In this document: one piece after another, positions 3,036 to 23,345 of the stretch | Layout of the letters: each line of letters begins with the position of its first letter | Numbering within the stretch: the stretch's first letter is position 1 | DNA from: Sneathiella sp. HT1-7 | GTDB lineage: Bacteria > Pseudomonadota > Alphaproteobacteria > Sneathiellales > Sneathiellaceae | Assembly (NCBI RefSeq): GCF_020731145.1 | Contig: NZ_JAJFZN010000002.1 | Coordinates: forward strand, 310,001-374,000 | Direction of reading: 5' to 3' | DNA length: 64,000 nucleotides | The notes under the pieces: model-generated | Seen by the model: only the letters and a program-made list of their open reading frames with translations | Told to the model about the DNA's origin: nothing | Database searches by the model: none | Translations under genes and position numbers: made by a program

Positions 3036-4064
3036 TTAGCCCTTTATTATTTTGGTGATGGTGGACTGATCCATATCGTGCTCGCCAATTATCACGAGCT
3101 TGCTGATACGTTTCTCATCGGCGGCCCATTCCCGATCATAATAGTGCTGTAACCGACTGCCGACGCCCTGCAGAACGAGCCGCATATCCTTGTCCTTCAC
3201 GGTAAGGAAACCTTTCACCCTCAAAATATCTTCCGCGGCGATGGCCTTTTCCAGCTTGGCAATCAGTGTTTCTGGAGATGTGATCTCCCCGACCTCCAGA
3301 ACAAAACTGTCAAAGTCGTCATGCTCATGGTCATCGGCATCATCATGAACCGACGGGCGCGCGTCTAGATCATCCTCTGCCGCCGCACCAAGACCCAGCA
3401 GAACCCGAGCGTCCAGCTTACCATGGCTCGTCTGGAGCATTTTCACCTGTGGACGGAGACGATCCTTTAGTCCGGCGGTGGCCGAGGAGAGTTCCTCATC
3501 TGCAAGCATGTCCGCCTTGTTGAAAATGATCATGTCGGCGCAATTGATCTGATCATCGAACAGCTCTTCCAGCGGGCTGTCATGATCCAGCATTTCGTCA
3601 GCTTCCCGCTGGGCCTGCACGGCGTCGGGGTTAGCGGCAAACAACCCATCACGATAGGCCGGGCCATCAATCACGGTAACCACTCCGTCGACTGTTACTT
3701 GCGTGCGCACTTCGGGCCATCCAAAGGCCCGGACAAGCGGTTTTGGAAGTGCAAGGCCAGAGGTTTCGACAATAATATGATCGGGGCGATCTTCGCGGCT
3801 TAGTATTTTCTGTATGGTGGGGAGGAAATCATCGGCAACCGTGCAACAAATACAGCCGTTGGCAAGCTCGACAATGTCTTCTTCCGTGCAGTTTTCATTG
3901 CCGCATCCCTTGAGGAGGTCCCCGTCGACGCCAAGGTCGCCGAACTCATTGATGATAAGTGCCAATTTTCGGCCCTCCGAATTTTCGATTAGGTGGCGGA
4001 TCAGGCTGGTCTTGCCCGCGCCAAGGAAACCGGTGATAACGGTTGCCGGTATTTTCTCACTCAT
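3036..4064 (-). CDS. cobW: CobW family GTPase, cobalamin biosynthesis
   Basis: A G3E-family P-loop GTPase of 342 aa, thought to deliver or handle cobalt for cobaltochelatase. The Walker A motif GFLGAGKTSL is at residues ~12-21, the family metal-binding motif GCICC at ~70-74, and the base-recognition NKAD at ~182. A His/Asp-rich stretch (HDDADDHEHDDFDSF, ~240-255) precedes the C-terminal CobW_C domain and could bind metal. The ATG at 4064 is preceded by GGAG at a suitable distance. The gene is first in an operon with cobN, one base apart, and a cobalamin riboswitch lies in its leader. Related COG0523 proteins serve Zn2+ or nitrile hydratase, but this context makes the cobalt role the likely one. 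Confidence 0.95.
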   Translation of the reverse strand: MSEKIPATVITGFLGAGKTSLIRHLIENSEGRKLALIINEFGDLGVDGDLLKGCGNENCTEEDIVELANGCICCTVADDFLPTIQKILSREDRPDHIIVETSGLALPKPLVRAFGWPEVRTQVTVDGVVTVIDGPAYRDGLFAANPDAVQAQREADEMLDHDSPLEELFDDQINCADMIIFNKADMLADEELSSATAGLKDRLRPQVKMLQTSHGKLDARVLLGLGAAAEDDLDARPSVHDDADDHEHDDFDSFVLEVGEITSPETLIAKLEKAIAAEDILRVKGFLTVKDKDMRLVLQGVGSRLQHYYDREWAADEKRISKLVIIGEHDMDQSTITKIIKG

Positions 4065-4195
4065 ATCATTACTCCGGGGGAAAATGTCGCGCAGGCCAAA
4101 GGGTTGGCCGGGCAGGGGCGTTTGGAATTAGGGTGCGGATTTCGCAATGTCATTACGCTCATCATGATCCTCCGTCATGCAGCAGAAATTGATAC

Positions 4196-4350
4196 AGTTG
4201 ATGGCAGGTCTCCTGGCTTGCGAATGGCACCGGCACTTACCTTCCCGATTGTCTCAGTGGTTTTTTGTGCAGGCTAGTCGCATACAGTTGCGGGGACAGC
4301 CGCGGCATTGACCCATGGATCGCACCGCATTCCCTTATAATCCCTGATTG
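4196..4350 (-). promoter_or_regulatory. Cobalamin (AdoCbl) riboswitch
   Basis: Read on the minus strand, the leader of cobW contains the conserved blocks of the cobalamin riboswitch in order: GGGAATGCGGTGCGA (4320-4334), CCGCGGCTGTCCCCGCAACT (about 4284-4303), GCCTGCAC, CCACTGAGAC, GGGAAGGTAAGTGCCGG, and finally the B12 box AAGCCAGGAGACCTGCC (4203-4219). Its 3' end is about 135 nt upstream of the cobW start. No T-run terminator is visible between them. A short hairpin (GGCCAAAGGGTTGGCC, 4094-4109) sits just upstream of the cobW ribosome binding site, so control of translation seems more likely than attenuation; that part is inference. Confidence 0.93.
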
Positions 4351-4659
4351 GGAACCATCGGAGCGGACGCTACGGCGGAAAGCGTTGCCTGTCAATCCAT
4401 TGACGGTGCTTTTATCGATTTGCCCAATGGTCCGGGCTTTTTTAGGATGCCCCCTCGACCGGCTTCCGTTCAGAGTAGTCCAAAACAGAGCCCCCGGTGA
4501 TTCTGCGAGACAGAAATCATCAGTCCTGCCAACGATATTGAGATCCATCTCATTTAGTATTGGAAATGGCGTAATTATTCGAACTCGGCATCCCTTAAAC
4601 TGCTTCGTGATTGCAGAATGCAGTTTGTTTTCGCAAATTTATCCTGTAGTTTCTTTGCC
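4351..4659. other. Intergenic region between the riboswitch and the MlaF-like gene
   Basis: About 300 bases between two divergent transcription units. It should hold the promoter of the riboswitch-cobW-cobN unit on the minus strand and the promoter of the ATPase gene on the plus strand. Short open frames cross it on both strands, but none has a convincing ribosome binding site or recognisable product. I see no RNA gene, repeat or terminator here. Confidence 0.5.
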
Positions 4660-5448
4660 ATGGCGGAAACAGCGAAAAATAAAATTGTCGTCAAGGACCT
4701 GTATAAGAGCTTTGATGGCGTTCAGGTTTTGAACGGCATAAATCTTGAGGTGAAAGCTGGCGAGATTCTAACTTTGATTGGGCCGTCAGGCGCTGGCAAG
4801 ACGTTGACGCTGAAATGCATTCTCGGATTGATCAAACCCGACAGTGGCTCGATCCTCCTCGACGGGAAAGAAGTTAGCGATATGCCGGAGAAGGACCGGA
4901 TGGAATTTTTCCGAAAATTCGGTATTCTGTTTCAGCGTTCGGGATTGTTCGACGGCCTTCGGGTCTGGGAGAACATCGGCTTTCGCCTGAATCAGCAATC
5001 CGGTGTGAACAAGCAGGATGTCAAGGCAATGGCCATCAAGAAGCTGCGCTCTGTCGGACTGTCGGCGGATGTAGCTGACTTATTCCCGTCGGAACTCTCC
5101 GGCGGTATGCAGAAACGTGTTGGGTTCGCCCGTGCAATAGCCGGGGATCCTCCGATCCTGTTTCTGGATGAGCCAACTGCCGGGCTCGATCCGATAATGA
5201 GCAATGTCATCAATGATCAGATTTTCAATAACGTTCGTGAACTCGGCAGTACAGTTATGGCGATAACCAGTAACTTGCTGACAGCACGTATTATTTCCGA
5301 CCGCATCGCCATGCTGCATGAGGGACGCGTTGTCTGGACGGGCGACGTCCGTGAAGCGGGGCATACGGATGATCCATATGTGTCGCAGTTCTGGAATAAG
5401 CGAAAAGATGGACCAATTCAGATGTCGGTTTCGACTGTTTCAGCCTGA
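4660..5448 (+). CDS. ABC transporter ATP-binding protein, MlaF-like
   Basis: A single-domain ABC ATPase of 262 aa. Walker A GPSGAGKT (~39-46), signature LSGGMQKR (~146-153) and Walker B ILFLDEP (~166-172) are all intact. The sequence around them (GLDPIMSNVINDQI) resembles MlaF/Ttg2A, the ATPase of the MlaFEDB system that moves phospholipids between inner and outer membrane. The frame is open further upstream to 4618, but the ATG at 4660 (MAETAKNKIV) fits the family start better; neither start has a strong ribosome binding site. No MlaE permease or MlaD lipid-binding gene lies next to it, so its partner must be encoded elsewhere or differ. Assignment to the MlaF subfamily is by sequence feel; the ATPase call is certain. 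Confidence 0.85.
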   Translation: MAETAKNKIVVKDLYKSFDGVQVLNGINLEVKAGEILTLIGPSGAGKTLTLKCILGLIKPDSGSILLDGKEVSDMPEKDRMEFFRKFGILFQRSGLFDGLRVWENIGFRLNQQSGVNKQDVKAMAIKKLRSVGLSADVADLFPSELSGGMQKRVGFARAIAGDPPILFLDEPTAGLDPIMSNVINDQIFNNVRELGSTVMAITSNLLTARIISDRIAMLHEGRVVWTGDVREAGHTDDPYVSQFWNKRKDGPIQMSVSTVSA

Positions 5449-5532
5449 ATTTCCGTTATTTGGTGATCACGTAAAACATCCTGAAAGCGTCTAGTTTGGG
5501 CTTTGTTAGCGAGTCAAATTAGCGTGGTTTCC

Positions 5533-6273
5533 ATGAATGATGGCAAAAGTGACAGCCTGACAGCTTCAGATTTATTGACGCCACGGGACAATCTGCCGTG
5601 GCGCAAAGAAGAGCAGGCTCTGACCCGCTGGGTGCGCCCCTTTATAATAGATAACGCGGTTACACGGACGCATTGCACGTCAGTATTAACACAGGAAAGA
5701 AGGGAGCGAACACTCCTTCGGGATTCCGTTGAAGGGGAACTCGCGCGGCTGTCTTCAGTTAAGCAACGCTTCTGGATCGCTGAGTATAGATTTCTTGAAA
5801 AACTGCTGTTGTTCAGACAGCTCGTGACTTATGCGCCGTCTTTTCTGAACCTCTCGCATATCATGCCAAAAAAGCTGATTTATTGCAGACGGATGGTGGT
5901 GCGGTCATACCTTGAACAGAGTTCTCTTCCTAATACGCCCTTTGTCGAAAAGCTGTGTAGGCAGTTTGTGCGCAGTTGCGTGTTCTTCTATCCGGCGGAA
6001 AAACTCATCGAGGCAAGCGATAAATTCATATGTCTAGCTGGGAAATCAGCGGATCAGTCAAGAGCGGCGAACCGGCAACGGATTGCCATGGAGTTGCGTG
6101 CACTTCAATTGATGAGTGATCGGGAAATATGCGATCAATTCAGATGCGAGGATGCATATTTGAATGAACTTGCCCTGTTGACCAAGCTCGCGCGCAATTA
6201 TCGCCTGGGCGTTGATGATATTTTTCGGATAACGGCAGACGAAATCAGCAATTTCTGGAATTTTCAGGGCTAA
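5533..6273 (+). CDS. Hypothetical protein, unrecognised
   Basis: I do not recognise this 246-aa protein. It appears soluble and largely helical, with many Arg, Leu and Glu residues, no signal peptide, no membrane segment and no nucleotide-binding motif. The C-terminal third (MELRALQLMSDREICDQF, then LTKLARNYRLGVDDIFRIT) could form helical hairpins. The frame is open from a TTG at 5503, but the ATG at 5533 (MNDGKSDSL) is a more natural start; neither has a clear ribosome binding site. It lies 84 bases after the MlaF-like ATPase and about 115 before the antiporter gene, in the same direction, so cotranscription is possible. The length of the frame and alphaproteobacterial codon usage support a real gene. 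Confidence 0.65.
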   Translation: MNDGKSDSLTASDLLTPRDNLPWRKEEQALTRWVRPFIIDNAVTRTHCTSVLTQERRERTLLRDSVEGELARLSSVKQRFWIAEYRFLEKLLLFRQLVTYAPSFLNLSHIMPKKLIYCRRMVVRSYLEQSSLPNTPFVEKLCRQFVRSCVFFYPAEKLIEASDKFICLAGKSADQSRAANRQRIAMELRALQLMSDREICDQFRCEDAYLNELALLTKLARNYRLGVDDIFRITADEISNFWNFQG

Positions 6274-6387
6274 AAGATGGAAATGATGCAGAAAACATGC
6301 CGTTGAGCGATGCGTGCCTTGCGCTTTTTTATCCGTAATCGTACCCTTATTTTTTAACCGCTTTTCTTGCAGGTTTCGCAGCGCACA

Positions 6388-7812
6388 ATGCACCAACTTA
6401 CGGATATTGCCATCATTGCCACGATAGCCCTGATGTTCGGGATGATCATGACACGGCTTAGGCAGCCGGCAATTGTCGGTTACTTGCTAACCGGAATGGT
6501 GCTGGGGCGTTCGGTTTTCGGGTTTGTTGAAGATCGTGAAAATGTTGAAATTCTAGCCGAGCTTGGGGTGTTGCTGCTGCTCTATCTGATCGGGATGGAA
6601 CTCAACCTGAAGTCCTTTATGCGCATCTGGAAAACGGCAATTGGCGGCGTTTTTCTTCAGGTTGCGGTCTCTTATGTTGTCGTCGGACTGATTGCACTTT
6701 TTCTGGATTGGCCGTGGGAATTGACCTTACTTCTGGCCTTCAGCCTGTCGATCAGTTCGACCGCCGTTGCAGTTAAAATTCTCGAAGACATAGGGGAACT
6801 TCACCAGAGGACCGGTAATATCGCGGTGGGTCTTCTCATCGCACAGGATCTTGCGGTGGTGCCGATGCTGCTTATCGTTGGCAGCCTCTCAGGTGAGGCG
6901 TTGAATGTACCCGTACTCCTCTTGACACTCGGACTGGCGGTGGCCTTCCTGATAGGTCTTATTCTCTTCCTGAGCCGCAGGGAACGCATTCACCTGCCAT
7001 TCTTGAAAGCCATTTCCGGTCATGCGGACCTTACGCCCTTGTTCGGGATTGTTTTCTGTCTCGGGCTTGCGGCGATTAGCGGCCTTTTCGGTATGTCTCC
7101 TGCGTTTGGGGCGTTTCTTGCCGGCCTTATCATTGGGAACAGCCAGGAACGAAAAGGTATCGTCGAAGCAACGCAGCCGATCCAGTCGATTTTGCTAATG
7201 ATCTTTTTTCTTTCCATCGGCCTGCTGATAGATGTCACCTATATCTGGCAGAATATTGGCCTTGTCCTGTTGATGCTGCTGCTGGTGATTGTCGGAAAAA
7301 CGGCCATCAATATCGTCATTTTGAGGGTAACGGGCGTTGACTGGCGTTCCGCCTTTATCGCTGGGACCGCATTGGGCCAGGTAGGGGAATTCTCTTTTCT
7401 TCTTATGGCAACGGGGAGCGCAAGCGGCTATGTGTCGCGTGATATCTCTCAGTTGATGATTACGGTGATTGCGCTCAGTCTGATGATCAGCCCGCTCTGG
7501 CTTCTGACGGCCCGGCGCGCGCAGAGCGTTGCAGCCGGTCAGGCCAGCAATTTCCAGGTCTTCTGGAATAAGGCTTACGGTAAGGAGACCTTGGCAGTAG
7601 TTCGCATTTTCAGGGCAACGATAGGATATCTCGGCTCATTAACAGGCGGAACGTCGTCGCAGGCGCAGACCGCGGCCCAAACGGATGCCGGAGAAGTGGC
7701 GTCGCCTTCCCGCGCGGAAGGATCGGAAATCATCATCCAGAGTGAAGATGCTGCATCCTATCAGGCAATTCTGGAAGATGAGCGGGGCAGCGATCAAAAA
7801 GACAAGAATTAG
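6388..7812 (+). CDS. Kef-type monovalent cation:proton antiporter (CPA2 family)
   Basis: An integral inner-membrane protein of 474 aa with about 12 hydrophobic segments covering residues 5-385, followed by a hydrophilic cytoplasmic tail of about 90 residues rich in Ala, Glu and Asp. Family features include an N-terminal RLRQPAIVGYLLTGMVLG segment, LAELGVLLLLYLIGMEL, the SLSISSTAVAVKIL segment and GLLIAQDLAVVPML, which carries the transport-site Asp. GQVGEFSFLL is typical of the last helices. Such proteins exchange K+ or Na+ for H+. There is no full TrkA-N (RCK) domain, so it is shorter than KefB/KefC. The ATG at 6388 (MHQLTDIAI) is chosen over an upstream TTG at 6367. Confidence 0.9.
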   Translation: MHQLTDIAIIATIALMFGMIMTRLRQPAIVGYLLTGMVLGRSVFGFVEDRENVEILAELGVLLLLYLIGMELNLKSFMRIWKTAIGGVFLQVAVSYVVVGLIALFLDWPWELTLLLAFSLSISSTAVAVKILEDIGELHQRTGNIAVGLLIAQDLAVVPMLLIVGSLSGEALNVPVLLLTLGLAVAFLIGLILFLSRRERIHLPFLKAISGHADLTPLFGIVFCLGLAAISGLFGMSPAFGAFLAGLIIGNSQERKGIVEATQPIQSILLMIFFLSIGLLIDVTYIWQNIGLVLLMLLLVIVGKTAINIVILRVTGVDWRSAFIAGTALGQVGEFSFLLMATGSASGYVSRDISQLMITVIALSLMISPLWLLTARRAQSVAAGQASNFQVFWNKAYGKETLAVVRIFRATIGYLGSLTGGTSSQAQTAAQTDAGEVASPSRAEGSEIIIQSEDAASYQAILEDERGSDQKDKN

Positions 7813-8508: not shown

Positions 8509-9273
8509 ATGGGTCAGTTATCAGATCAGGTTATTATTTTAACAGGTGCCAGTCGGGGTATAGGTGCCGCTGCGGCTTTGGAGCTTGCTGCAAATGGTGC
8601 GAAACTCTGTCTGAGTGCGCGCTCCGCCAGCTCTTGCAGCGGTGTCCTTGAGCAGATCAAGAATTCGGGCGGTGAGGCGTTCGCCGCGAGTTGTGATGTG
8701 TCCGACTATGCAGCTGTTGAAAAAATGACGGCGGAAACGATGGATCGCTTTGGTCGGATCGATGCCTTGGTCAATAACGCTGGCATCGTCGACCCGATTG
8801 GTGCGATCGCGACGAGCGATCCTGACGAATGGGCGCAAAATATTTCGGTTAATCTCGTGGGTGTCTATAACGGGATACGCGCTGTTCTTCCGCATTTCTT
8901 GAAACAGAGTTCTGGGGTGATTATCAACATCAGTTCCGGCGCGGCGCATGGTCCGATGGACGGATGGAGTGCATACTGTTCAGGAAAGGCCGGCGTTTAT
9001 ATGATGACCCGTGCAACAGCGTTGGAGGCTGGCGAAAAGGGTGTTCGTGTATATGGGTTTGCCCCGGGAATCGTCGATACGGACATGCAGGGGGTGATCC
9101 GCGCCTCGGGTATCAATTCGGTCAGTCAAATTCCGCGCGAGAATCTTGCACCGGCTGATGAACCTGCGAAGGCCATTGCCTGGTTGTGCAGTGACGCGGC
9201 CAGTGATCTGGCCGGTCAGGAACTATCGATCCGTGACGAGACACTCCGCAAGAGGATTGGACTTTCTGTCTAA
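8509..9273 (+). CDS. SDR family NAD(P)-dependent oxidoreductase
   Basis: A classical short-chain dehydrogenase/reductase of 254 aa with a Rossmann fold. The cofactor-binding motif TGASRGIG is at residues ~13-20, the NNAG motif at ~87-90, the catalytic Ser in NISSGAA at ~144, and the catalytic Tyr/Lys pair in YCSGK at ~159-163. The substrate cannot be read from sequence; general annotation as a 3-oxoacyl-ACP-reductase-like SDR would be a guess. The start ATG at 8509 gives the expected family N-terminus. The next gene begins 10 bases after the stop, which suggests cotranscription although the products are unrelated. Confidence 0.92.
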   Translation: MGQLSDQVIILTGASRGIGAAAALELAANGAKLCLSARSASSCSGVLEQIKNSGGEAFAASCDVSDYAAVEKMTAETMDRFGRIDALVNNAGIVDPIGAIATSDPDEWAQNISVNLVGVYNGIRAVLPHFLKQSSGVIINISSGAAHGPMDGWSAYCSGKAGVYMMTRATALEAGEKGVRVYGFAPGIVDTDMQGVIRASGINSVSQIPRENLAPADEPAKAIAWLCSDAASDLAGQELSIRDETLRKRIGLSV

Positions 9274-9283
9274 GCCCGCGTCC

Positions 9284-10120
9284 ATGAGGCAAAATGCCCG
9301 ATCTGTTTATGCAAGCCTTAAAAACGCGGTTTGCATTTGCCTCATCTTCTCTATCGCGTTCGTCCTGGTTCCGGAGTTCGTTCGCGCCGAAATGTCTGTC
9401 CCGGATAAGGTGCTTAAGGTTCCGGGAATTAAAGGCGATGATAATCGGGTGCGTGTCAAGATCTCGGATTATCCCTGGCGTATGATCGGACGACTAAACC
9501 GAAGCGGCAGTCATTGCACGGGTATCCTCGTGGGGCCGGTATCGGTACTGACAGCGGCCCATTGTTTTTGGGATAATCGGCGTCAACAATGGTCGGTGCC
9601 AAGCGCGTTTCATTTCGTGCTTGGCTATGAGAAGGGGGACGTGAAGGCACATTCCAGGATCGAGCGGTTTGAATTGCCGGATGGGCGGCAACCTACTTCT
9701 CTTGATAAAAAGTCGACGCTGGAAAATGATTGGGCAATTGCAACATTAAAAAACCCACTTGGGGAGGAATTCGGCTTTGCGCCTGTAGCCGCTTTTAATC
9801 TTCGCGAATTAAAAGATGTTCTCGCCAGCGGAGCTGTTGTTGTTCAGGCTGGCTATAGCCGGGATATTGCACATATGTTGACCGCAGATAAAGATTGCGA
9901 GATCAGCAGTATCCAGCAAAGTAAATCCGGCTTGCTGTTGCGGCACCAATGTGATGCAACGCAGGGCGATTCGGGCTCTCCTCTTTTTCTGTATGACGGA
10001 AAGTCGTACTCACTTATCGGAATTCATGTTGCGACAATGTCGAATTCCAAGGGGATGAACGATGGAATTGCGGTGTCCTTGGACATGTTCAGGAACCGTG
10101 TGTCACAACTGCAAAAATAA
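9284..10120 (+). CDS. Secreted trypsin-like serine protease (S1 family)
   Basis: A 278-aa protein with an N-terminal signal peptide (hydrophobic VCICLIFSIAFVLVPEF, cleavage probably after VRA near residue 35) and a chymotrypsin-fold protease domain. The triad is visible: His in TAAHC (~86), Asp in ENDWAIA (~148) and Ser in QGDSGSP (~230). The frame is open upstream into the SDR gene, but the ATG at 9284 gives a proper signal peptide. It should act in the periplasm or outside the cell. It lies next to a type I secretion and LapG-like region but has its own Sec signal, so a functional link is only suggested by position. Four or more Cys residues could form disulfides. Confidence 0.9.
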   Translation: MRQNARSVYASLKNAVCICLIFSIAFVLVPEFVRAEMSVPDKVLKVPGIKGDDNRVRVKISDYPWRMIGRLNRSGSHCTGILVGPVSVLTAAHCFWDNRRQQWSVPSAFHFVLGYEKGDVKAHSRIERFELPDGRQPTSLDKKSTLENDWAIATLKNPLGEEFGFAPVAAFNLRELKDVLASGAVVVQAGYSRDIAHMLTADKDCEISSIQQSKSGLLLRHQCDATQGDSGSPLFLYDGKSYSLIGIHVATMSNSKGMNDGIAVSLDMFRNRVSQLQK

Positions 10121-10249: not shown

Positions 10250-10271
10250 GTGCGCAGGGGTAGTGGCGACT

Positions 10272-10589
10272 ATGAGTGATAAGCAAACAGATCAAAATCA
10301 GTTGATCGAAGATGATCAGGCTGTATCTGAAAATAGTGAAACGGCGGACCTTGCTTTCCTGGAGTTGGATGAGAATGGAACCGTTGATCTGGATGCCTTG
10401 TTTGATGCATTGAATATCGCGGCGGAAGAAAACGGCAGTTCCATGGAATTTGCCGAAAGCGGTGATGGCGATACAGGTACGCTGACACTTTCAGGCGCGG
10501 AATTAAATTTTGGCAATGTCGCCTCTGAAGACCTGCCGGATGCGACGGATTTACTTCTGAAAAGTAATATCGTTTCTGACGAGTCTTGA
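10272..10589 (+). CDS. Small acidic protein, possible stand-alone type I secretion-signal-like protein
   Basis: A 105-aa, strongly acidic protein with no Cys, no signal peptide and no membrane segment. I do not recognise a named family. The layout of the last 70 residues (VDLDALFDALNI, then ESGDGDTGTLTLSGAELNF, ending ATDLLLKSNIV) recalls the C-terminal secretion-target regions of LapA-type adhesins, which carry Asp/Leu helices, a Gly/Asp/Thr strand pair and a final hydrophobic segment. This resemblance is by eye only. The ATG at 10272 is preferred to a GTG at 10263; GGGG lies upstream. The gene converges on the type I secretion operon, ending 4 bases before the last gene of that operon, which makes a role as cargo or regulator worth testing. 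Confidence 0.6.
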   Translation: MSDKQTDQNQLIEDDQAVSENSETADLAFLELDENGTVDLDALFDALNIAAEENGSSMEFAESGDGDTGTLTLSGAELNFGNVASEDLPDATDLLLKSNIVSDES

Positions 10590-10593
10590 GTTT

Positions 10594-12660
10594 TTAGCCC
10601 TTCTTGCTTTTCTCGATATTTGCCTTGAAGTCGGCACCGGTTTCAGTCTCGAAAAAGCGCATCATCGCATCAACAACTTCTGGGTCGTATTTTTCCGGAT
10701 TGAGTTTAAACACGCGAAGGGCCTCGTCAACACTGATAGCCTCGCGGTAAGAACGCGGTGAAATTCGTGCAATCAGGATATCCGCCATCCCGAGAATGCG
10801 GGCCGGCATATCGATTTCATCCTTTGTTAGGCCTTTTGGATAACCGGTCCCGTCAAGAAGCTCGTTAATTTGGGTGACGGCATCAAGGACTTCTTTTTCC
10901 ACATCGGCGTTACTTAGAATCTTTTCGGCGATCAATACATGTTTCTGCATCACTTTCTGTTCTTTTTCACTCAGCCGTACATCCTTTTCCCTAATCTCGC
11001 GCGGGATGGATATTTTACCGATCTGTGAAAGATGCGCACCGGTGTTGATTATTTTGATCATTTCAGGAGACAGCCCCAGCTCCACTGAGATGTGATTGGC
11101 AATCTGCGCCATTCGAATGGAATGATCTGACAGATAAGGGTCATTAGCTTCCAGCATCTGGGCAAGAACAGTAATGGCTTTGCGATCCATTTCCTCTTTC
11201 CGGCGCTGGAATTTCACATAGTCGGTGATGTCACTGCTGACTGTGACAATGCCAAGGAATGCTCCGTCTTCATTGAGAAAGCGGGATTTAGCGATCCTCA
11301 GAATCCGCGTTCCGTCCCGCCTTTCAATTTCGACAAAGGCGTTGACCGTCTGTTCCGTCGCGATGGCCTTGCGATCATGTTCAGCAAGATCTCGGGCGGC
11401 CTTTTCGCCAAACAACTCACGATCCGTTTTGCCGGGAATGGATCGAAGCGGGTAATCAGCGACCCTGGCGAGGGATGGATTCGCGTAGATGTAACGCCCT
11501 TCCGGGTCGGTTAGGCCGATCAGTTCATCTATTGTGTTGTTGATACTTCCCAGCAACCGTCGTTGTGTGTTTATCTGGTCTGCAAATTCCTTGTACTGTT
11601 GGGCGAGTGCGCGGGCGCTTTGTCCCTTTAGGGTCAGCCAGATCACGACGAGAACGGTAAAGACAATAATGAGGAAGCTGAACGCGAGGCCAATGACAAA
11701 CATCGCATAGGTCCGAAGCGGCGCCAATGCTTTATCGCTGGACACCTGCTGAAAGACCACAAAGTGAGTGTTCGGAACCAGCGCCCCGGAGGAAAAGACA
11801 CTGTTGCTGTTTTCTCGAGCTATTTCCTGAAAGTTTGTTGCGCCGGGCGCAAGCTGCGCATCTTCCTGAGGTGCAATAAATGGAGGTTTTAGCGGGAACA
11901 GCTCATAATATTTTCCATCCGCTTCCTGATAAAGCTTAGTCACATCCGGCTGATTATTATAGAGCGGTGCGTTCAATAGTTCTGAAAGCGCATTTGATGC
12001 CGGGACGGTGAGTAGCAGAGCCCCGACTATGACATCATTACCGCTGCTGTTGGGTTCGCGTTGCGCCGCATGAATTGGCAGGACGAAGTCAAAAACAAGC
12101 CCGGCATCGCTCGCACGAAGAGGTAGGAAAGTTACTTCTGTTTTCTCATACTGCGCTTGCGCGGTTGAGCGTTGATTGTCCGTTAGGGACGGAGCATTTC
12201 CGGAAGCAAGATAAGCACGGCCATCTTTACCGATAAGGTATGCTCCAATAAGTTCCGCCTGATTGACGAAATTTGAGAACGCGTTCTGCATGTAAGGCAG
12301 TTGATCATTCAGTGATTTTGGGAGCTTGCCGTCACCCACAAAATTAATTTCTGTGGCAAACAGCTTGAAAAGTTCATTTTCTGCGATCCGGTTGGCGTCT
12401 TCGACTTCACCCGCAAGCCAGGTTTCCATCACTTGTGCCTTGCCGGCCGCGCTCACATCAAGGCGTTTTTGAAGCTCCCCGACTAATTCCTGTTTGCGAG
12501 ACTCTATTGCGTAGTCACACAGAAAGTATCCCAGGATCGCAAAGACGATGAGAAAAAACGCGGCAATCTTCCAGGGGGCTTTGCGAAAAAGGTTGCTATC
12601 GCTTGGCGCACGGTCGGAAAGAAATGAATTTAGTTCAAGCTTGGCTGTTGCATCAGTCAT
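10594..12660 (-). CDS. Membrane sensor with Cache-like periplasmic domain, PAS and degenerate HD-GYP domain
   Basis: A 688-aa inner-membrane protein. TM1 is at ~30-50, followed by a ~270-residue periplasmic region resembling a Cache sensor, TM2 at ~320-345, a PAS domain at ~370-490 and an HD-GYP-like domain at ~500-670. The HD-GYP scaffold is clear (NDPYLSDHS, IGKISIP, DGTGYPKGL), but the metal-binding residues are gone: HDxGK reads SQIGK (11011-11040) and the HHE of HHExxDGTGYP reads QIN-E (about 10842-10880). It is therefore unlikely to hydrolyse c-di-GMP and may be a receptor. The ATG at 12660 is chosen over 12681 because AGGGAG lies 7 bases upstream; the start overlaps the LapG-like gene by 8 bases. 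The topology equals that of LapD, the c-di-GMP receptor that controls LapG. Confidence 0.88.
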   Translation of the reverse strand: MTDATAKLELNSFLSDRAPSDSNLFRKAPWKIAAFFLIVFAILGYFLCDYAIESRKQELVGELQKRLDVSAAGKAQVMETWLAGEVEDANRIAENELFKLFATEINFVGDGKLPKSLNDQLPYMQNAFSNFVNQAELIGAYLIGKDGRAYLASGNAPSLTDNQRSTAQAQYEKTEVTFLPLRASDAGLVFDFVLPIHAAQREPNSSGNDVIVGALLLTVPASNALSELLNAPLYNNQPDVTKLYQEADGKYYELFPLKPPFIAPQEDAQLAPGATNFQEIARENSNSVFSSGALVPNTHFVVFQQVSSDKALAPLRTYAMFVIGLAFSFLIIVFTVLVVIWLTLKGQSARALAQQYKEFADQINTQRRLLGSINNTIDELIGLTDPEGRYIYANPSLARVADYPLRSIPGKTDRELFGEKAARDLAEHDRKAIATEQTVNAFVEIERRDGTRILRIAKSRFLNEDGAFLGIVTVSSDITDYVKFQRRKEEMDRKAITVLAQMLEANDPYLSDHSIRMAQIANHISVELGLSPEMIKIINTGAHLSQIGKISIPREIREKDVRLSEKEQKVMQKHVLIAEKILSNADVEKEVLDAVTQINELLDGTGYPKGLTKDEIDMPARILGMADILIARISPRSYREAISVDEALRVFKLNPEKYDPEVVDAMMRFFETETGADFKANIEKSKKG

Positions 12661-13372
12661 TTTGGTTGCTCCCTGCGGCATCTTGCGCGGTCAGGAAATC
12701 AAGGGGAATATGGGCCCATCTCCTATTTTCATTAACGGAGTAGAACGGGACGTAATAGTTGACGAGGCGTTCTTCCAGTATGGTATCGTTCAGGTTGTCG
12801 AGAACATAGCGTTTGCCCCGGCGCTCGACGCTTAATACGGCATGTGCCTTGTTGCGCAGGACATCGTTGGCGATAACAATACGCATGGCATCGGGGTCAA
12901 AACCGAGCTCTTTAAGGCTGACATATTTCATGATGGCGAAATCTCTTGATCCGCCGCCATTTGAAATAAACTCAAGCGGCGACGCCCAATGGCTGTCAGA
13001 TAATGCCCCTGCGTCGTCGGGAATAAATTTCCAGCCATTTAGAAAACTGTTCAGTTCCTGCATCTGGATGCGCTTAGGAGAATTTTGTAGTTCTGCGATT
13101 TTCGTGCGCCACAACGTCATCTGTTGCGACTCACAATCCTCGATGCGGGCATCGCATTTGGCGGCAGCATTTGCGAGCTGGGGAAAACTCGCTTTAACTT
13201 TGAGCCAGAGGGGTAGGGCTGCCAGATTATCTGATGAAATTTCGACTAAGCCGAAAAGGCCCTTTTCCGTCACGTCCGCGTGAGCGGTCGCACCGGTCAC
13301 TGGGCCTAAAAGGAAAAGACCCGTTAGCAGAAAAGCGGTGGCGTGCTTTATCATTCTATTGTGTATCATCAC
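12653..13372 (-). CDS. LapG-like transglutaminase-like protein lacking the catalytic cysteine (predicted pseudo-protease)
   Basis: A 239-aa protein of the bacterial transglutaminase-like cysteine peptidase family (DUF920, peptidase C93), with a signal peptide at the N-terminus (hydrophobic ~10-30, cleavage after AHA) and thus periplasmic. LapG of this family cleaves type I secreted adhesins near their N-terminus. The family core GDCEDFA(I/V)xKY reads GGSRDFAIMKY here, so the catalytic Cys is Ser (residue 142, TCA codon at 12947-12949) and the flanking acidic residues, reported as calcium ligands in LapG, are Gly and Arg. His (NKAHAVL) and Asp (YVLDNLN) of the triad remain. Its ATG overlaps the HlyD stop (ATGA) and its end overlaps the HD-GYP gene, so the three are translationally coupled. 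Likely a non-catalytic binding partner or decoy; slow Ser-based activity cannot be excluded. Confidence 0.9.
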   Translation of the reverse strand: MMIHNRMIKHATAFLLTGLFLLGPVTGATAHADVTEKGLFGLVEISSDNLAALPLWLKVKASFPQLANAAAKCDARIEDCESQQMTLWRTKIAELQNSPKRIQMQELNSFLNGWKFIPDDAGALSDSHWASPLEFISNGGGSRDFAIMKYVSLKELGFDPDAMRIVIANDVLRNKAHAVLSVERRGKRYVLDNLNDTILEERLVNYYVPFYSVNENRRWAHIPLDFLTAQDAAGSNQND

Positions 13373-14697
13373 CGTTCCCTCAATGCCGTATCCCGTGTTT
13401 TCAGGATAGGTTTCAGGATATAGTCCAGCACTGTTTTATGGCCTGTGAGGATATCGACAGAGGCGACCATGCCGGGAATAATTGGATAGGAGTTTTCCCC
13501 GCGTTTGAGGAAATTCTGGTTTGTACGAACGATGATCTGATAATAGCTTTCGCCGGATTTCTCATCAACAATCGTATCGGCACTGATCCGTTCAAGCTTG
13601 GCTGGCAATCCGCCATAAATTGAGTAGTCATAAGCCGTGATCTTTACTGTGGCTTCTTGTCCTGGCCGCAAAAAAGCGATGTCGGCCGGGCGAATATTCG
13701 CTTCCACCAAAAGCGTATCGTCGATTGGCACTATTTCAATAATATCCTGACCCGGTTTGACGACGCCGCCAATGGTCTGGATTTTAACGTCCTTTACTTC
13801 ACCAGTTACAGACGAGCGCACATCCGTCCGTGCAACACGATCCTTGACACCGAGAATGGCCTGACGAGCCGCCTCATACTCCGCACGTGTCTGGCTCAGT
13901 TCTTGTGATGCAGTACTTTTGAAACTGAGAATTTTTTCCTCAATTCGCTGATTAGCTTCCTTAAGCGCGCCTTCAACACGTGGCTTGGAAAGCTCGGATG
14001 CAGAAATCTGCCCTTTCAGGTCGTTAATTTCCCGGCGTAGCTTGAGAGATTCCACCTTTGGGACAATCCCTTTCTTGACGAGAGGTGCCGTAATTTCCAT
14101 TTCTTCATTGGCGAGTCCGAGGCTGGCACGGAGCTGTCTCAGGCGACCATTAATCTCTGCAATTTCTTGGTTTCGCTGTTGCGCCTGTTGCCGCAAGATT
14201 TGTATTTGCGATTGGAGTTCAGCCTGCCGCGCATTATACAGATTTAGCTCGCGCACGGAAATGTCCTTACGCTCCGCCAGAAGTTCAGCAGGGAAGGTAA
14301 GGGGTTCACCCGTGGCCTCCGCTTCAAGACGGGCGATACGCCCCATCAGGTTAAGATAATTGGATTCGATTTCTCCCGCGCGGGAGGAAAAGCCGGTATC
14401 GTCAATGCGTAGAAGAATCTGGCCCTTTTCGACGATATCGCCTTCATGTACCAGCAATTCTCTGAGGATGCCGCCTTCCAGATTCTGGATAATTTGTACT
14501 TGGCTGGACGGGATGACCTTGCCGTCGCCGCGGGTGACTTCATCCAGAACCGCATTTTTTGCCCAGATGAACCCGACAACGAAAAAGGCGATTACACCAA
14601 ACAGCAGGAGGAAAGAACGCGGATGCGGGCCTTGTACTCTCGCGGCTACGACGTCCGACGCGAAATCTGAGTCATTCCATTTTAAATTGTCTGCCAT
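13369..14697 (-). CDS. HlyD-family type I secretion membrane fusion protein (LapC-like)
   Basis: The periplasmic adaptor of a type I secretion system, 442 aa. It has a short cytoplasmic N-terminus, one TM segment (~30-50, FLLLFGVIAFFVVGFIWA), a first lipoyl half-motif (IIQNLEGGILRELLVHEGDIVEKGQ), a long coiled-coil region (~120-290, rich in Gln, Glu, Arg and Leu), and the second lipoyl half and beta-barrel ending with the HlyD C-terminal signature (IIPGMVASVDILTGHKTVLDYILKPI). It bridges the ABC exporter and the TolC protein. It starts 2 bases after the ABC gene stop and overlaps the next gene by 4 bases, so it is within one operon. Confidence 0.95.
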   Translation of the reverse strand: MADNLKWNDSDFASDVVAARVQGPHPRSFLLLFGVIAFFVVGFIWAKNAVLDEVTRGDGKVIPSSQVQIIQNLEGGILRELLVHEGDIVEKGQILLRIDDTGFSSRAGEIESNYLNLMGRIARLEAEATGEPLTFPAELLAERKDISVRELNLYNARQAELQSQIQILRQQAQQRNQEIAEINGRLRQLRASLGLANEEMEITAPLVKKGIVPKVESLKLRREINDLKGQISASELSKPRVEGALKEANQRIEEKILSFKSTASQELSQTRAEYEAARQAILGVKDRVARTDVRSSVTGEVKDVKIQTIGGVVKPGQDIIEIVPIDDTLLVEANIRPADIAFLRPGQEATVKITAYDYSIYGGLPAKLERISADTIVDEKSGESYYQIIVRTNQNFLKRGENSYPIIPGMVASVDILTGHKTVLDYILKPILKTRDTALRER

Positions 14698-14699
14698 AG

Positions 14700-17084
14700 T
14701 CAGTCCTCCGGTCCGTTTCGCTGTGGTTTTGACACGGTTGCCGAAACAGTTTTGGAGGTTGAGTTTCCACTCTGACCGAGTTTCAGAATTTCATCGCGCG
14801 GGCCATCCGCCGCGATCTTGCCATTTCCAAGGACAATGATCCGATCAACCAGCGAGAAGAGGGAGGTGCGATGCGTCACGAGAAGCAAGGTCTTTCCTTG
14901 AATATAGTCTTGAAGACGGCTAATCAGCCGTCGCTCTGAATTGATGTCCATGGCACTTGTCGGTTCATCGAGCATCAGGATAGGCGGATTGGGCAGGAAA
15001 GCGCGGGCAAGACCAATTGTTTGCCGTTGCCCTCCGGACATGGTCGCGCCTTTTTCTCCAACATGCAGGTCATAGCCATGTGGATGCCGAGAAATAAAAT
15101 CATGTACACCGGAAAGCTTCGCGGCATTCAGGATCATTTCATCGTCGGCACGCGGATGCCCCAGGATGATGTTTTGCCTAACAGAGGCCTGGAACAGGGT
15201 GATATCCTGCATGACGCTGCCAATGCTCCGGCGGATATCGGAAGGGTCGATTTGCCGGATATCCGTGCCGTCAATCAGTACGGCGCCTTCATCGGGCTCA
15301 TAGAGATTGATTAGCAGGCGCGAAATCGTTGTCTTCCCTGATCCAACGGGCCCGATAATTCCGACTTTCTCACCCGCCCGTATCTTGAATGATACATTGT
15401 CGAGCGCAGGGATGTCGGTGCCCGGATATTTGAAAGTTACATCCTTGAATTCGATATCACCCTGGATATTCGGGCGGCTGAGTTGACGTTTTTCCGCGCC
15501 CCGTTCAACCGGGAGGGACATAATATGATTAAGTCCCTTCAAGGCGACGATAGCTTGATTGAGGCGGGTAAGCAGCCCGGCGATCTGGCCAAGCGGTGCC
15601 ATTGTCCGCCCTGTTAAAATGGTGCAAGCGATCAAGGCGCCTACTGTAATAGTCGAGTCCGGTTCTCCCATTAACATGACGCCATAGACGACCACGCCGA
15701 CGGTTACAAGTTGCATGGCAGCAGCGGAAAGATTGATGCCGAGGCCGGCGAAGAAGCGCGCGGCAACGCTTGTTTCAGCGGTCTTCCCGACGAAGCGTTC
15801 CCATTCCTTCTGCATATGGCCTTCAATTCCCATGCTTTTAACGGTGTCGAGGGCGGAGATTGTTTCAACGATAACCCCATGCTTCTGGGCGGCTTCTTCC
15901 GACGTTTTGGAAACGGCGCGGCGCATGGGCCATTGCAGACACAGCCCGATAAGCAGAACAACAGGGACGGCAACAGCGGGAATGATAAAAAGCGGGCCAC
16001 CGATCAGGTAAATGATAAACAGGAAAATCGCGAGGAAGGGTAGATCGACGAGCGCCGTTACGGTAACGGACGTGAAGAAATCCCGCAATGTTTCAAACTC
16101 TCGCAGGTGATTGGCAAACGCGCCAGCAGACGCAGGACGGGCCTTTACCTGAAGGTTGAGAACTTGCTCGAATATTCGGCTGGACAGCAGAATGTCAGCC
16201 CGTTTACCGGCATTGTCGACAAAATACGACCTCAGTGATTTAAGTAACAGATCGAAGCCGATCACGGTGATTACACCAATTGCCAGCACCCATAATGTTT
16301 CGATCGCCCGGTTGGGAACGACCCTGTCATAAACATTCATAATAAAAAGGGGGCTTGCCAGGGCGAAGCTGTTGATCAGAAAGGCGGCGATAATGACCTG
16401 AATATATGTCGGCCAGAATTGCCACATGGTCCCCCAAAACCATGAGCCGGGCCTATCCTGTAACTTTTCATCCTTATCAACGCGGTACTTGAAACTTGGT
16501 CGGGTCAGAATAGCGTACCCGGCATATTCAGCGTCCAGTTCTGTGAGCGGCAGGCTGTCGGAGCCTTCCCCTGTTTCCGGGAAGATAACTTTGGCTTTCC
16601 TGTCTTCCCGCGAGAGCAGGATACAGGCGCGCCGGTCATTGAGCAGGACGACGCAAGGTAGAACGGCTTCCGGTATCTTATCGAGATTTCGATTGGTGAT
16701 GCGGGCACTGATGCCGACGCGTTCCGCGGCCCGGACAAATAGCGCCGGTGTTAATTTGTTGTCTTCAAGTGGGAGGCCGTAGGCTAGCGCATCCGGAGTG
16801 CGTGGATCATCGAAAAGCTTAGTCAAAGCCGCGAGGCAGCCAAGCAGGGGATCCTGATCAGAGCGCGTGATTTCGGAAAGGTTGACCTGCCAGTTTCCCT
16901 TACTTTTGATTTTTGTCCGAAGGGCAGCCTCTGTGGTCTCTAGCTTACTTGCTGCTGCAGTCGGCTTACCTGTTTTCAATTTGGTGTCCCTTGTCTTTTT
17001 GTTTCCGGCTTTTGTGACGAATAGATCGTCCGTTGTGTTGACATCGAGCCTCGCGGATTTGCGTGAATTTTCGCTCACCGGCAT
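14700..17084 (-). CDS. Type I secretion ABC exporter with degenerate C39 domain (LapB-like)
   Basis: A 794-aa inner-membrane exporter. A poorly conserved, charged N-terminal ~75 residues is followed by a C39-like domain (~75-205) in which the motif reads DPLLGCLAAL; the catalytic Cys position is not conserved, as in CLD-type exporters of RTX proteins. The ABC transmembrane domain spans ~220-510, and the ATPase domain ~550-770 has Walker A GPVGSGKTT, signature MSGGQRQ and Walker B ILMLDEP. This architecture matches LapB and related adhesin exporters. The ATG at 17084 has GAGGG unusually close, so translation may begin at a slightly different point. First gene of the operon that continues with HlyD, the LapG-like protein and the HD-GYP-like protein. 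Confidence 0.95.
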   Translation of the reverse strand: MPVSENSRKSARLDVNTTDDLFVTKAGNKKTRDTKLKTGKPTAAASKLETTEAALRTKIKSKGNWQVNLSEITRSDQDPLLGCLAALTKLFDDPRTPDALAYGLPLEDNKLTPALFVRAAERVGISARITNRNLDKIPEAVLPCVVLLNDRRACILLSREDRKAKVIFPETGEGSDSLPLTELDAEYAGYAILTRPSFKYRVDKDEKLQDRPGSWFWGTMWQFWPTYIQVIIAAFLINSFALASPLFIMNVYDRVVPNRAIETLWVLAIGVITVIGFDLLLKSLRSYFVDNAGKRADILLSSRIFEQVLNLQVKARPASAGAFANHLREFETLRDFFTSVTVTALVDLPFLAIFLFIIYLIGGPLFIIPAVAVPVVLLIGLCLQWPMRRAVSKTSEEAAQKHGVIVETISALDTVKSMGIEGHMQKEWERFVGKTAETSVAARFFAGLGINLSAAAMQLVTVGVVVYGVMLMGEPDSTITVGALIACTILTGRTMAPLGQIAGLLTRLNQAIVALKGLNHIMSLPVERGAEKRQLSRPNIQGDIEFKDVTFKYPGTDIPALDNVSFKIRAGEKVGIIGPVGSGKTTISRLLINLYEPDEGAVLIDGTDIRQIDPSDIRRSIGSVMQDITLFQASVRQNIILGHPRADDEMILNAAKLSGVHDFISRHPHGYDLHVGEKGATMSGGQRQTIGLARAFLPNPPILMLDEPTSAMDINSERRLISRLQDYIQGKTLLLVTHRTSLFSLVDRIIVLGNGKIAADGPRDEILKLGQSGNSTSKTVSATVSKPQRNGPED

Positions 17085-17860: not shown

Positions 17861-19207
17861 ATGAAGCTTAGAAACCGTGCGGGGAAGACAATGAATGTAC
17901 TTTCCGCCAGTGTTCTAACGGCGGTCTTCGGAAGTTATATAGCGGTGGGGGCCGCGCAATCCGAAACATTGGTGGATGCAGTCCAGCAAACGGTTTCGAC
18001 CTATCCGGAAATCGCCGAGGCTTCGGCAAATCGCCGCGCGATTGATCAGGAATTAAGACAGGCGGAAGGACTTTATCTTCCGTCGCTCGATCTTGAAGCG
18101 GGCATTGGTTATGAGTGGACTGATACAGTTACCATTGATAACGAAGATTTGCGCCGCACGGAATCGAGCCTTCTGCTCGTGCAGACCCTTTACGATGGTG
18201 GGTTTCGTAGCGCAGAAGTAGACCGGCAGGGAAATCGTGTCGATAGTGCTGCGTATCGGGTCCGGGAACGGGCCGAAGCCATCGCTCTTGACGCGGTGCG
18301 GTCCTATCTTGATACGCTTCGCAGTCAACAAATTGTTGAACTGGCGAAGGAAAATGTCGAAAAACATCGCCGGACACTGAATGAAATCCAGGACAGGGTG
18401 AGAGCCGGACAAAGCGGTATTGGTGATGACCAGCAGGCGCTGGCGCGTCTTGCTGCAGCTGAAGACACTCTCGTTGAAACTTTGCGCGCGCAGGACGATG
18501 CGGAAATTACCTATCGGAGAGTTGTGGGTGTACAGCCGGTAAATCTCGAACTTCCTGACTTCAGCGACAGCGTTCTTCCCGACAATATTGATGATATCGT
18601 GGCGATTGCGCTGGAAGGTAATCCGGACATTATGTTCGCTTCTTCAGATATCAAAACGTCTGATGCGGAAATTCGGGCGACTCAGGCAAGCTACTATCCG
18701 ACAGTTAATCTGGAGGTAGGAGGCTCTGCGGATAATAATCTCGATGGGGTTGAAGGCCATAACGACGATTTATTGGCGATGCTTCGGTTGCGCTACAACC
18801 TCTATAGAGGGGGGATCGACGAAGGCCGTGAGAAGGAAGCGTTAGCACGCAAAGCAGAGACGGAGCAGCGCAAACGCCGTTATGAACGCCTCGTAGAAGA
18901 GGAAGTTCGACGCAGCTGGAGTTCACTCGCCCGTTCGGAAGCGCGTTCGGAAGTTCTCGCAGCGGCTGTTGTTGCCAATACTGAGGTTGCCTCGACTTAC
19001 AAACAGGAATTTGAAATCGGGCAGCGTGATCTGCTGGATCTGCTGGATGCGGATAATGAACTGTTTAACTCCCGGACGTCGCTGGTGACGGTGGAGTATT
19101 CGGTTAGGTTTGCAAAATATCGGTTGCTTGCCACTATGGGCCGGTTGAACTCGACACTCGGTGTGACCCTGCCCGCGGAAGCAACGCCGATGGAGAAAAA
19201 AGGCTAA
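17861..19207 (+). CDS. TolC-family outer membrane channel of type I secretion
   Basis: An outer-membrane efflux protein of 448 aa with a signal peptide (~1-32, cleavage after GAAQS or nearby). Two OEP repeats (~35-215 and ~235-435) form the alpha-helical barrel. Typical TolC/LapE (AggA) features are the N-terminal LVDAVQQTVSTYPEI, TLYDGGFRSAEVDRQGNRVDSAAYRV, LRYNLYRGGIDEGREKEA and EFEIGQRDLLDLLDADNELF. It has a strong ribosome binding site (GGGAGAGGGGT directly before the ATG). It diverges from the ABC-HlyD operon and very likely completes that secretion system. An intrinsic terminator follows its stop. Confidence 0.95.
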   Translation: MKLRNRAGKTMNVLSASVLTAVFGSYIAVGAAQSETLVDAVQQTVSTYPEIAEASANRRAIDQELRQAEGLYLPSLDLEAGIGYEWTDTVTIDNEDLRRTESSLLLVQTLYDGGFRSAEVDRQGNRVDSAAYRVRERAEAIALDAVRSYLDTLRSQQIVELAKENVEKHRRTLNEIQDRVRAGQSGIGDDQQALARLAAAEDTLVETLRAQDDAEITYRRVVGVQPVNLELPDFSDSVLPDNIDDIVAIALEGNPDIMFASSDIKTSDAEIRATQASYYPTVNLEVGGSADNNLDGVEGHNDDLLAMLRLRYNLYRGGIDEGREKEALARKAETEQRKRRYERLVEEEVRRSWSSLARSEARSEVLAAAVVANTEVASTYKQEFEIGQRDLLDLLDADNELFNSRTSLVTVEYSVRFAKYRLLATMGRLNSTLGVTLPAEATPMEKKG

Positions 19208-19275: not shown

Positions 19276-19938
19276 CTAGGGCTTGTGACGCCACCATCCA
19301 ATCTCATTGACAGAATATATCGGTCGGTAATGTCGGATGCGAGTGGCATCAACGACTTGTCCGATTTGATTGTCGAGCACTAGATTTTTGCCTTTATAAT
19401 TCACAACCAGAATTGCATGGGCGATGCCGAGATTAACATCCTGCAGAACGACAATTTTCATGTCCTTCGCTGACCACCCGAGGGCGCGCAGCGTAAAATA
19501 CTTGACGATCGCGTAGTCTTCGCAATCACCGAACCGGGCAAAGAATTCTTTAGGAATTTCCCAATAATCACGCACTCCCCAATTGATGGGATCAAGAATA
19601 TAGCGAAAAAGATTCATGTGCCGATTGATTTTTTCAAGCTGCTTTTCTTTCGGCAGTGACCGCCATTCCTCTATCAGGGCGCGCCATTTCTGATGGGCGC
19701 AGCGATTATATTTTCCTGAAACGCAATCGCCAGGCCTATCCTTGTAGGTTGCGAGCACCTTTCGCCATTTTGGAAAGGGTTTGAGGCCGGAATAGGGGGT
19801 TGCCTTATAACCGAACAGGTCACCTGCCTTTGCGTCAGCGAGAGATGGTGCTGCAATAACGCAGCAGGCAAGAATAAGTGCTGCGCATATCGTGGCAAAT
19901 CCGGGTCTTGTTCCTGTCACCGCGTTGGTTCCTGCCAT
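19276..19938 (-). CDS. LapG-like periplasmic cysteine protease (transglutaminase-like, C93), triad intact
   Basis: A 220-aa member of the bacterial transglutaminase-like cysteine peptidase family. It has a signal peptide (hydrophobic ~14-34, cleavage after LADA) and acts in the periplasm. The triad is complete: Cys139 in RFGDCEDYAIVKY (codon 19522-19524), His in GIAHAIL and Asp in LVLDNQ. LapG homologues cut the retention module of type I secreted adhesins and release them from the cell when c-di-GMP is low. A further Cys pair (GDCVSGKYNRC, ~70-80) may form a disulfide. The gene diverges from a membrane HD-GYP-like gene and converges on the TolC gene, which places it within the secretion locus. 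It is probably the active protease of the pair. Confidence 0.93.
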   Translation of the reverse strand: MAGTNAVTGTRPGFATICAALILACCVIAAPSLADAKAGDLFGYKATPYSGLKPFPKWRKVLATYKDRPGDCVSGKYNRCAHQKWRALIEEWRSLPKEKQLEKINRHMNLFRYILDPINWGVRDYWEIPKEFFARFGDCEDYAIVKYFTLRALGWSAKDMKIVVLQDVNLGIAHAILVVNYKGKNLVLDNQIGQVVDATRIRHYRPIYSVNEIGWWRHKP

Positions 19939-20121
19939 CTGGTTAAAAAAGCCTCCTGTTCAGGCGCATTATGGGCAACAAATCATTAACAAAGACTGAG
20001 CAGGACATCTAATGTCATTGCGTCGTTAAGTAATTTTTGGGTAATTTAGATCGGTGATTTACCTATCTTAAAGAGTTTCAAGGCATTCTGCCGTACAGTG
20101 AAATATATAACCGGGGCATTT

Positions 20122-22271: not shown

Positions 22272-23345
22272 TTAAAGGAGACCTGTGGCCTGTAGGGCCG
22301 CCGGGCCAGTCAGGATGAGCTTGACCACTTCGCTTTGTCGGCTGGTGTCGGTTTTGCGGAAGACTTGTCTCAGTTGAGAGCGAACTGTGTGCATGCTGAC
22401 CCCCCATTGCTCTGCGAGGTCATCAAGCTTATGACCATTGGTCAGGCCAAGCGCCAAGCGCCCTTCCGCTGGTGTCAGGCCATATAGCTTACAAATTGAT
22501 TCTACAGAAAGCTCAACTGGTTCAGCCGGGTCAGAGACAAATAGAACGGCACCCTTTCCGGCGGCCCCGGTTCCGATAGGGGCGACCATGACATTCAACG
22601 GATAGTCACTTTCCATCCGGGTCAGGGAAATGGCGAAATCGCCTTCTGATTTGCTGTCGCCGCCGGGGGAGAGTGTGTCGGACAACAGCTTGGCGAGTGC
22701 CCGGCTTTCACCTGGCAGTGTTGCACGGCATATCCGGTCAGTACCAACAACCAGACCGTCACCCTTTTCCAGATAGCGTTTTGCCTTTCCATTGAAGAAA
22801 AGGATTTTCGTATCAGCTGTTACCAGGATAACCCCGATTGGAAGCCTGTTCAGTACGGCCGTCGCAGAATCAAGAAGTGGTGCCGATTCTGCGCTTTGCC
22901 GATGACCCTGATGGCGCTGAATGGCGTTGAGCAAGCAGCGCGACATGCCATCTGTCGAGAGTTGACTTTTGATGAGGTAGTCCTGCGCGCCCAACCGAAT
23001 AGCCTCACGGCCGATATTTTCGTTATCATCCGTGAGCACAACAATCGGTGTGTGGGGAGTTTTTTCTCCAAGGAGCGATACCGCTTTGATCCTGTCTTCC
23101 TGAGTTTCTGTCAGATCAAGAATAATGACTTCGCCCTGCTGACCGTGACCGGCTTTCACATAACTGTCGACAGAAGCAATATGTTCGAACGAAAACTTTG
23201 CCGTCGACGCATTGGACAGCAACCAACCTAATTGTTGGGCATCCTCTTCCTTTTGTCCAATAAAGTGAACTGTTGCAGTAGAGTTTTTGTCCATTGAATA
23301 TGGTTTTCCGACTTGTTTATTCGGTTTCCTTGACATGACCGCCAA
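22272..23345 (-). CDS. Response regulator with REC, PAS-like middle and LuxR-type HTH
   Basis: A 357-aa regulator. The REC domain (~25-140) keeps the phospho-acceptor Asp (VIILDLTE), the Thr (VVLTDD) and the Lys (YLIKSQ). The middle (~155-285) resembles a PAS fold (LPIGVILVTADTKILFFN). A LuxR/GerE HTH lies at ~290-345 (LTPAEGRLALGL, SMHTVRSQLRQVFRKT). It should bind DNA when phosphorylated by an unlinked histidine kinase. It could also start at the ATG at 23294 (MDKNSTATV). It converges on the second HD-GYP-like gene with only 14 bases between, so it may regulate the secretion locus; that is inference from position. Confidence 0.9.
   Translation of the reverse strand: MAVMSRKPNKQVGKPYSMDKNSTATVHFIGQKEEDAQQLGWLLSNASTAKFSFEHIASVDSYVKAGHGQQGEVIILDLTETQEDRIKAVSLLGEKTPHTPIVVLTDDNENIGREAIRLGAQDYLIKSQLSTDGMSRCLLNAIQRHQGHRQSAESAPLLDSATAVLNRLPIGVILVTADTKILFFNGKAKRYLEKGDGLVVGTDRICRATLPGESRALAKLLSDTLSPGGDSKSEGDFAISLTRMESDYPLNVMVAPIGTGAAGKGAVLFVSDPAEPVELSVESICKLYGLTPAEGRLALGLTNGHKLDDLAEQWGVSMHTVRSQLRQVFRKTDTSRQSEVVKLILTGPAALQATGLL

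Follow-up and report, generated by a model that had tools for sequence, protein, structure and literature searches.

Results

The window analysed here, a stretch of 64,000 nucleotides from Sneathiella sp. HT1-7, a representative of a genus of marine bacteria, carries a type 1 secretion locus that includes two proteins matching the Peptidase_C93 family. We refer to the putatively dead copy (12653–13372, minus strand) as Gs, to the catalytically intact LapG/DvhG-type copy (19276–19938, minus strand) as Gc, and to the receptors that adjoin them as Ds and Dc, respectively. On the minus strand, a LapB-like ABC exporter with a C39-like domain (14700–17084; Pfam ABC_tran, ABC_membrane and Peptidase_C39) is followed by a LapC-like HlyD membrane fusion protein of the type 1 secretion system (13369–14697; Pfam HlyD_3), by Gs and by Ds (10594–12681), and the last three of these genes overlap. 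The end of the fusion-protein gene, at 13369, overlaps the GTG/ATG start of Gs, and the start of Ds falls within the 3′ end of Gs, either at 12681, as given by the ORF finder, or at the likelier ATG at 12660 in ATGACTGA. A LapE/TolC-like outer membrane channel (17861–19207, plus strand; Pfam OEP) lies between this run and Gc, from which Dc (20098–22257, plus strand) is divergent. The gene order exporter, fusion protein, G and receptor (B-C-G-D) is fixed across Sneathiella, with Gs and Ds being adjacent in every locus seen.

Pfam matches and motif states, and for Ds also PDB matches, identify both receptors as DvhD-like, with a dCache-PAS-degenerate HD-GYP architecture. Ds, in which HD is changed to SQ, matches the DvhD structures 9rc0 (E 1.5e-45), 9rbz (E 1.7e-36) and 9rc2 (dCache; E 3e-16). 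Dc is a homologue of Ds with the same domains, in which HD is changed to MN and GYP to GQP, and the two receptors are distant from each other. At the positions through which DvhD contacts c-di-GMP, Ds keeps Y523, P567, L577, Y621, R650 and Y652 and differs at K520, R569, K582, M646 and E668, while Y523, L577, M646, R650 and Y652 are kept in Dc. LapD, with its LapD/MoxY periplasmic domain and GGDEF-EAL, was not found at the locus; the parts that are present, namely the dCache/PAS/degenerate HD-GYP receptors, an intact LapG-fold protease and the type 1 secretion genes, are of Dvh type. Since both neighbouring receptors are homologous to DvhD, the locus comprises two receptor-protease pairs, one of them with a dead protease, and we propose from sequence that Gc and Dc constitute the working pair and Gs and Ds the dead pair.

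Further genes lie at the borders of the locus. A 108-residue acidic protein (10263–10589, plus strand), the C-terminal part of which resembles the ends of type-1-secreted adhesins (all end in DES), is kept next to Ds in several congeners and could be a miniature secretion-signal protein. The locus is adjoined across Sneathiella by a trypsin-like serine protease that retains its H-D-S motifs (9146–10120, plus strand) and that also accompanies Ds-type genes in genomes unrelated to the genus (L139, L146). On the other side, a gene with a weak response-regulator receiver match (22272–23345, minus strand) adjoins Dc in Sneathiella and in two loci outside the genus (L102, L041).

The Gs product is a putatively secreted protein of 239 residues. 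It matches Pfam PF06035 (Peptidase_C93) with an E value of 9.8e-10 and 38.9 bits, compared with 65.8 bits for Gc, with which it shares 33% pairwise identity, and a Foldseek search with its AF2 model (pLDDT 84.4) gave LapG as the best match (4fgq/4fgo, E 3e-12). The core of Gs reads GGGSRDFAIMKY and places Ser142, encoded by TCA at 12947–12949, at the nucleophile position; the core of Gc is GDCEDYA, with Cys139 encoded by TGC at 19522–19524. The triad partners His177 and Asp192 are both present in Gs. Around the nucleophile position, D141 is replaced by Gly and E143 by Arg, and D144 is retained. As a member of C93, Gs has the fold together with the His and Asp, and lacks the catalytic Cys and the acidic residues that flank it. 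The initial annotation had inferred a Ser in place of the nucleophile Cys, with the His and Asp of the triad, the signal peptide and translational coupling on both sides all kept, and our analysis agrees on each point: the N terminus looks, by inspection, like a signal peptide, and the coupling is evident in the gene overlaps at 13369 and at the Ds start. The description of Gs as a LapG paralogue holds for its fold and its C93 family; the system, however, is of the DvhD/DvhG rather than the LapD-LapG type, and Gs has an adjoining receptor of its own.

A Pfam search recovered C93 matches in 25/25 Sneathiella genomes, mostly as two copies approximately 6.6 kb apart. In each of the 24 genomes with a readable second copy, the window's genome included, the nucleophile position is occupied by Ser, which rules out a sequencing error as the origin of Ser142. 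The recurrence of Cys-to-Ser copies at the same operon position, which the initial annotation had raised as a question, therefore extends to all 24. Most of these copies read GGDSEDFAIMKY, with the flanking acidic residues intact (GDSED), and a nested subclade that includes the window has GGSRD, GGSKD, GRSRD or GSSVD instead. Loss of both flanking acidic residues, as first noted for this gene, is thus true of the Gs in the window but not of the genus. From the distribution of these motifs, the Cys-to-Ser change is old and genus-wide, and the acidic residues were lost afterwards, in one subclade.

Beyond Sneathiella, the sister genus (G025, locus L102) has Pro at the nucleophile position, in GDPLDLA, and L041, a MAG from an unrelated proteobacterium, has Gly, in GDGEDFA; both show the same gene order and an intact Cys copy alongside. 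The chemistry of the nucleophile is therefore not conserved. Another genome, G184, possesses two Gs-type copies, one with Cys and one with Asp, and a Ds-type neighbour is found beside each. Scanning 385 alphaproteobacterial genomes for the motif returned mostly Cys, with nine matches lacking it, three of which were Sneathiella copies. Ser-bearing C93 proteins were also recorded in further Alphaproteobacteria (G153, G241, G167 and G365; loci L153, L154, L155, L156 and L162), with the motifs GDSEDFALTKY, GDSEDFALAKY and GDSEDIAIAKY. As these proteins lie away from secretion genes and on long branches, they fall outside the finding for Gs and are likely to represent separate losses. At one locus (L157, in G085:C9), a Gc-type copy reading GDREDYA, apparently with a broken frame, adjoins an intact Dc-type receptor.

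A tree built from 103 C93 domains places Gs and Gc in two separate groups. The Gs group also holds Cys-bearing proteins from other genera that occupy the same slot of exporter-fusion-G-receptor operons (L137, L142, L143, L145, L146 and others). The existence of such orthologues indicates that an active protease lost catalysis and that Gs descends from the active protease of its own operon, rather than from a recent copy of Gc. When the core was masked in the tree, Cys was lost three times by parsimony, and a single clade of Cys loss is not rejected (p-AU 0.30); together these place the number of losses at between one and three. We have consequently not retained a single origin as a firm result.

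Pairwise dN/dS values range from 0.065 to 0.124 for Gs and from 0.046 to 0.098 for Gc. Gs contains no stop codons, is present in all Sneathiella species with adequate assemblies and preserves its gene overlaps. The possibility of a pseudogene is rejected by the dN/dS values and by retention of the gene throughout the genus which, with the fixed operon position, bear out the earlier view that Gs is not decaying. Apart from the nucleophile, nearly all family-invariant residues are retained in Gs, including W56, C73, C80, W88, N108, N112 and W129, as are P132, F135, D170, D192, P209 and W219. Other residues are fixed in the dead group only, namely M85, T86, L87, K91, G139, M148 and Y206, as expected for a specialized interface; M85, T86, L87, K91 and M148 vary among active relatives, and position 206, always Tyr in the dead group, is His or Gln in the active proteins. 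Taken together, the retention of the gene, purifying selection and the replacement of Cys by Ser, Pro, Gly or Asp according to lineage give good support to the original proposal of a maintained non-catalytic LapG paralogue, whereas the decoy or adhesin-holding action proposed along with it is conjectural. By these measures Gs seems to have acquired a new, constrained function and not to be a relic.

Two candidate adhesin genes are located elsewhere in the genome, far from the locus. One (L177, ORF 3547–7587) encodes 1346 residues with FecR, T1SS-143 and VWA matches and a partial retention match, the profile score of which is below the cut-off; the other (L181, ORF 3662–6301) encodes 880 residues. 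In each of them a PEAG motif precedes GGGANF, and the site pattern in the two is [I/V][A/N/S]P[A/E/Q]AG. In homologues throughout the genus the site is P[A/E/Q]AG and is frequently preceded by F[D/N]P, a pattern similar to the [T/A/P]AAG and DP elements reported for substrates of LapG. The two adhesins are likely to be cargo of the exporter at the locus. For one adhesin type, the change of A to E or Q at the cleavage site seemed to accompany the disappearance of acidic residues from Gs; this link was then rejected, because the second adhesin has PEAG also in species in which GDSED is intact.

Discussion

The closest parallel to the Sneathiella locus is found in Desulfovibrio vulgaris, where DvhD, a c-di-GMP-binding, non-hydrolysing HD-GYP receptor, controls the LapG-like protease DvhG (PMC13090378). 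The two systems share receptors of dCache-PAS-degenerate HD-GYP type (Ds having the HD-to-SQ change of DvhD), a protease with the LapG fold and type 1 secretion; adhesins bearing cleavage motifs of LapG type are matched in Sneathiella by the two candidates. The Sneathiella locus differs in being alphaproteobacterial and in possessing two receptor-protease pairs, in one of which the protease lacks its nucleophile; a catalytically dead copy of DvhG is not mentioned in the parts of that report consulted (PMC13090378). LapG itself, known from Pseudomonas fluorescens and Legionella pneumophila (MEROPS C93), resembles Gs in its fold (4fgq, 4fgo), in the His and Asp of the triad, in being secreted and in being encoded with a type 1 secretion system. 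Unlike LapG, Gs has no Cys, the flanking acidic residues have gone in the window's subclade and the locus has no LapD-type (GGDEF-EAL) receptor. The Dvh system has previously been reconstructed in the laboratory strain P. fluorescens Pf0-1. Pseudo-proteases, catalytically dead homologues that regulate by binding, are exemplified by the iRhoms, and Gs shares with them the loss of a catalytic residue, a fold under selection and an active relative in the genome.

We suggest, as the likeliest though still tentative reading, that Gs is a binding-only module, held or released by Ds, that competes with Gc for the retention sites of adhesins. Gs would be a periplasmic pseudo-protease, kept by selection as a binding module with the LapG/DvhG fold but no nucleophile, and would dock on type-1-secreted adhesins at their retention module and P[A/E/Q]AG site. 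Once docked, it would shield them from Gc, with Ds holding or freeing Gs according to c-di-GMP. What is observed is the fold homology, the genus-wide loss of Cys, purifying selection, an overlapping receptor gene, an active twin at the locus and candidate adhesins; that Gs acts without proteolysis and binds both adhesin and Ds, and the direction in which control would run, we infer from these sequence features. Against this reading, the acidic residues flanking the nucleophile are part of the LapG calcium site, such that binding near the active site could be weaker in the window's subclade, which lacks them.

Gs may instead be a fixed partner or sensory subunit of Ds, seated on its dCache domain and shaping the Ds signal without touching the adhesin, an explanation that we consider unlikely but deserving of attention. 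The invariable adjacency of the two genes would be accounted for, as would the Ds-type neighbour that accompanies the Asp-for-Cys copy in G184. Evolution is faster in Gs and Ds than in Gc and Dc, and among three possible partners the rate correlation of Gs is highest with Ds (partial r 0.47, a modest value from data points that are non-independent), which points weakly to Ds as the partner, under the binding-only reading as well as this one. Nevertheless, residues in the substrate half of the fold are conserved beyond what a receptor-only partner would need.

Rather less probable is a decoy function, in which Gs would occupy Dc (or Ds) at high c-di-GMP and thereby free Gc to cut adhesins. The homology of Gs to Gc, and the presence of both receptors, themselves homologous, are in keeping with such a function, but Dc and Ds are distant and each has an adjacent G of its own, and Gs shows a lower partial correlation with Dc than with Ds.

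We regard it as improbable that Gs is still an enzyme, with Ser, His177 and Asp192 as its triad. Within Sneathiella these three residues hardly vary, but Pro, Gly or Asp stands at the nucleophile position of related dead proteins, and the triad His is Gln in one Sneathiella species (L049) and Glu in L041. In the AF2 model, residue 142 begins a predicted helix (142–155), and as helices favour any of Ser, Asp, Gly and Pro at their first position, there is a structural reason to keep Ser. Ser142 of Gs is, on these grounds, probably not catalytic; for LapG, changing Cys135 to Ala yields an inactive protein that shows no cleavage (PMC3032545). Finally, that Gs is a duplicate on its way to loss has very little to recommend it: Gs does evolve faster than Gc (mean distance 0.61 versus 0.40), but it is under purifying selection across the whole genus (dN/dS approximately 0.1), is kept without stops in all adequately assembled species and preserves its overlaps.

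The LapG fold, the secretion and receptor system and the concept of a pseudo-protease are already known. We know of no pseudo-protease in the LapG/C93 family, and in the open-licence literature searched we found neither a LapG pseudo-protease nor any active pair accompanied by a conserved dead LapG that has a DvhD-type receptor of its own.

Release of the LapG type sets when biofilm cells let go. If the binding-only reading of Gs is true, a dead protease with its own receptor adds a brake that works purely by binding to what is otherwise a system of one protease and one receptor. The locus also shows DvhD-type receptors in Alphaproteobacteria, and the Gs copies are natural dead mutants with which substrate binding may be separated from cleavage, and with which the recognition of LapG folds by dCache receptors may be tested. 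Extending this more speculatively, the c-di-GMP adhesin switch may have two opposed outputs, with one receptor directed to the protease that frees the adhesin and the other to a dead copy that would guard the site at which that protease cuts. In Alphaproteobacteria, receptor-associated dead copies of LapG would have arisen one to three times. Our findings thereby raise the suggestion that a dead enzyme helps to decide whether Sneathiella cells stay attached.
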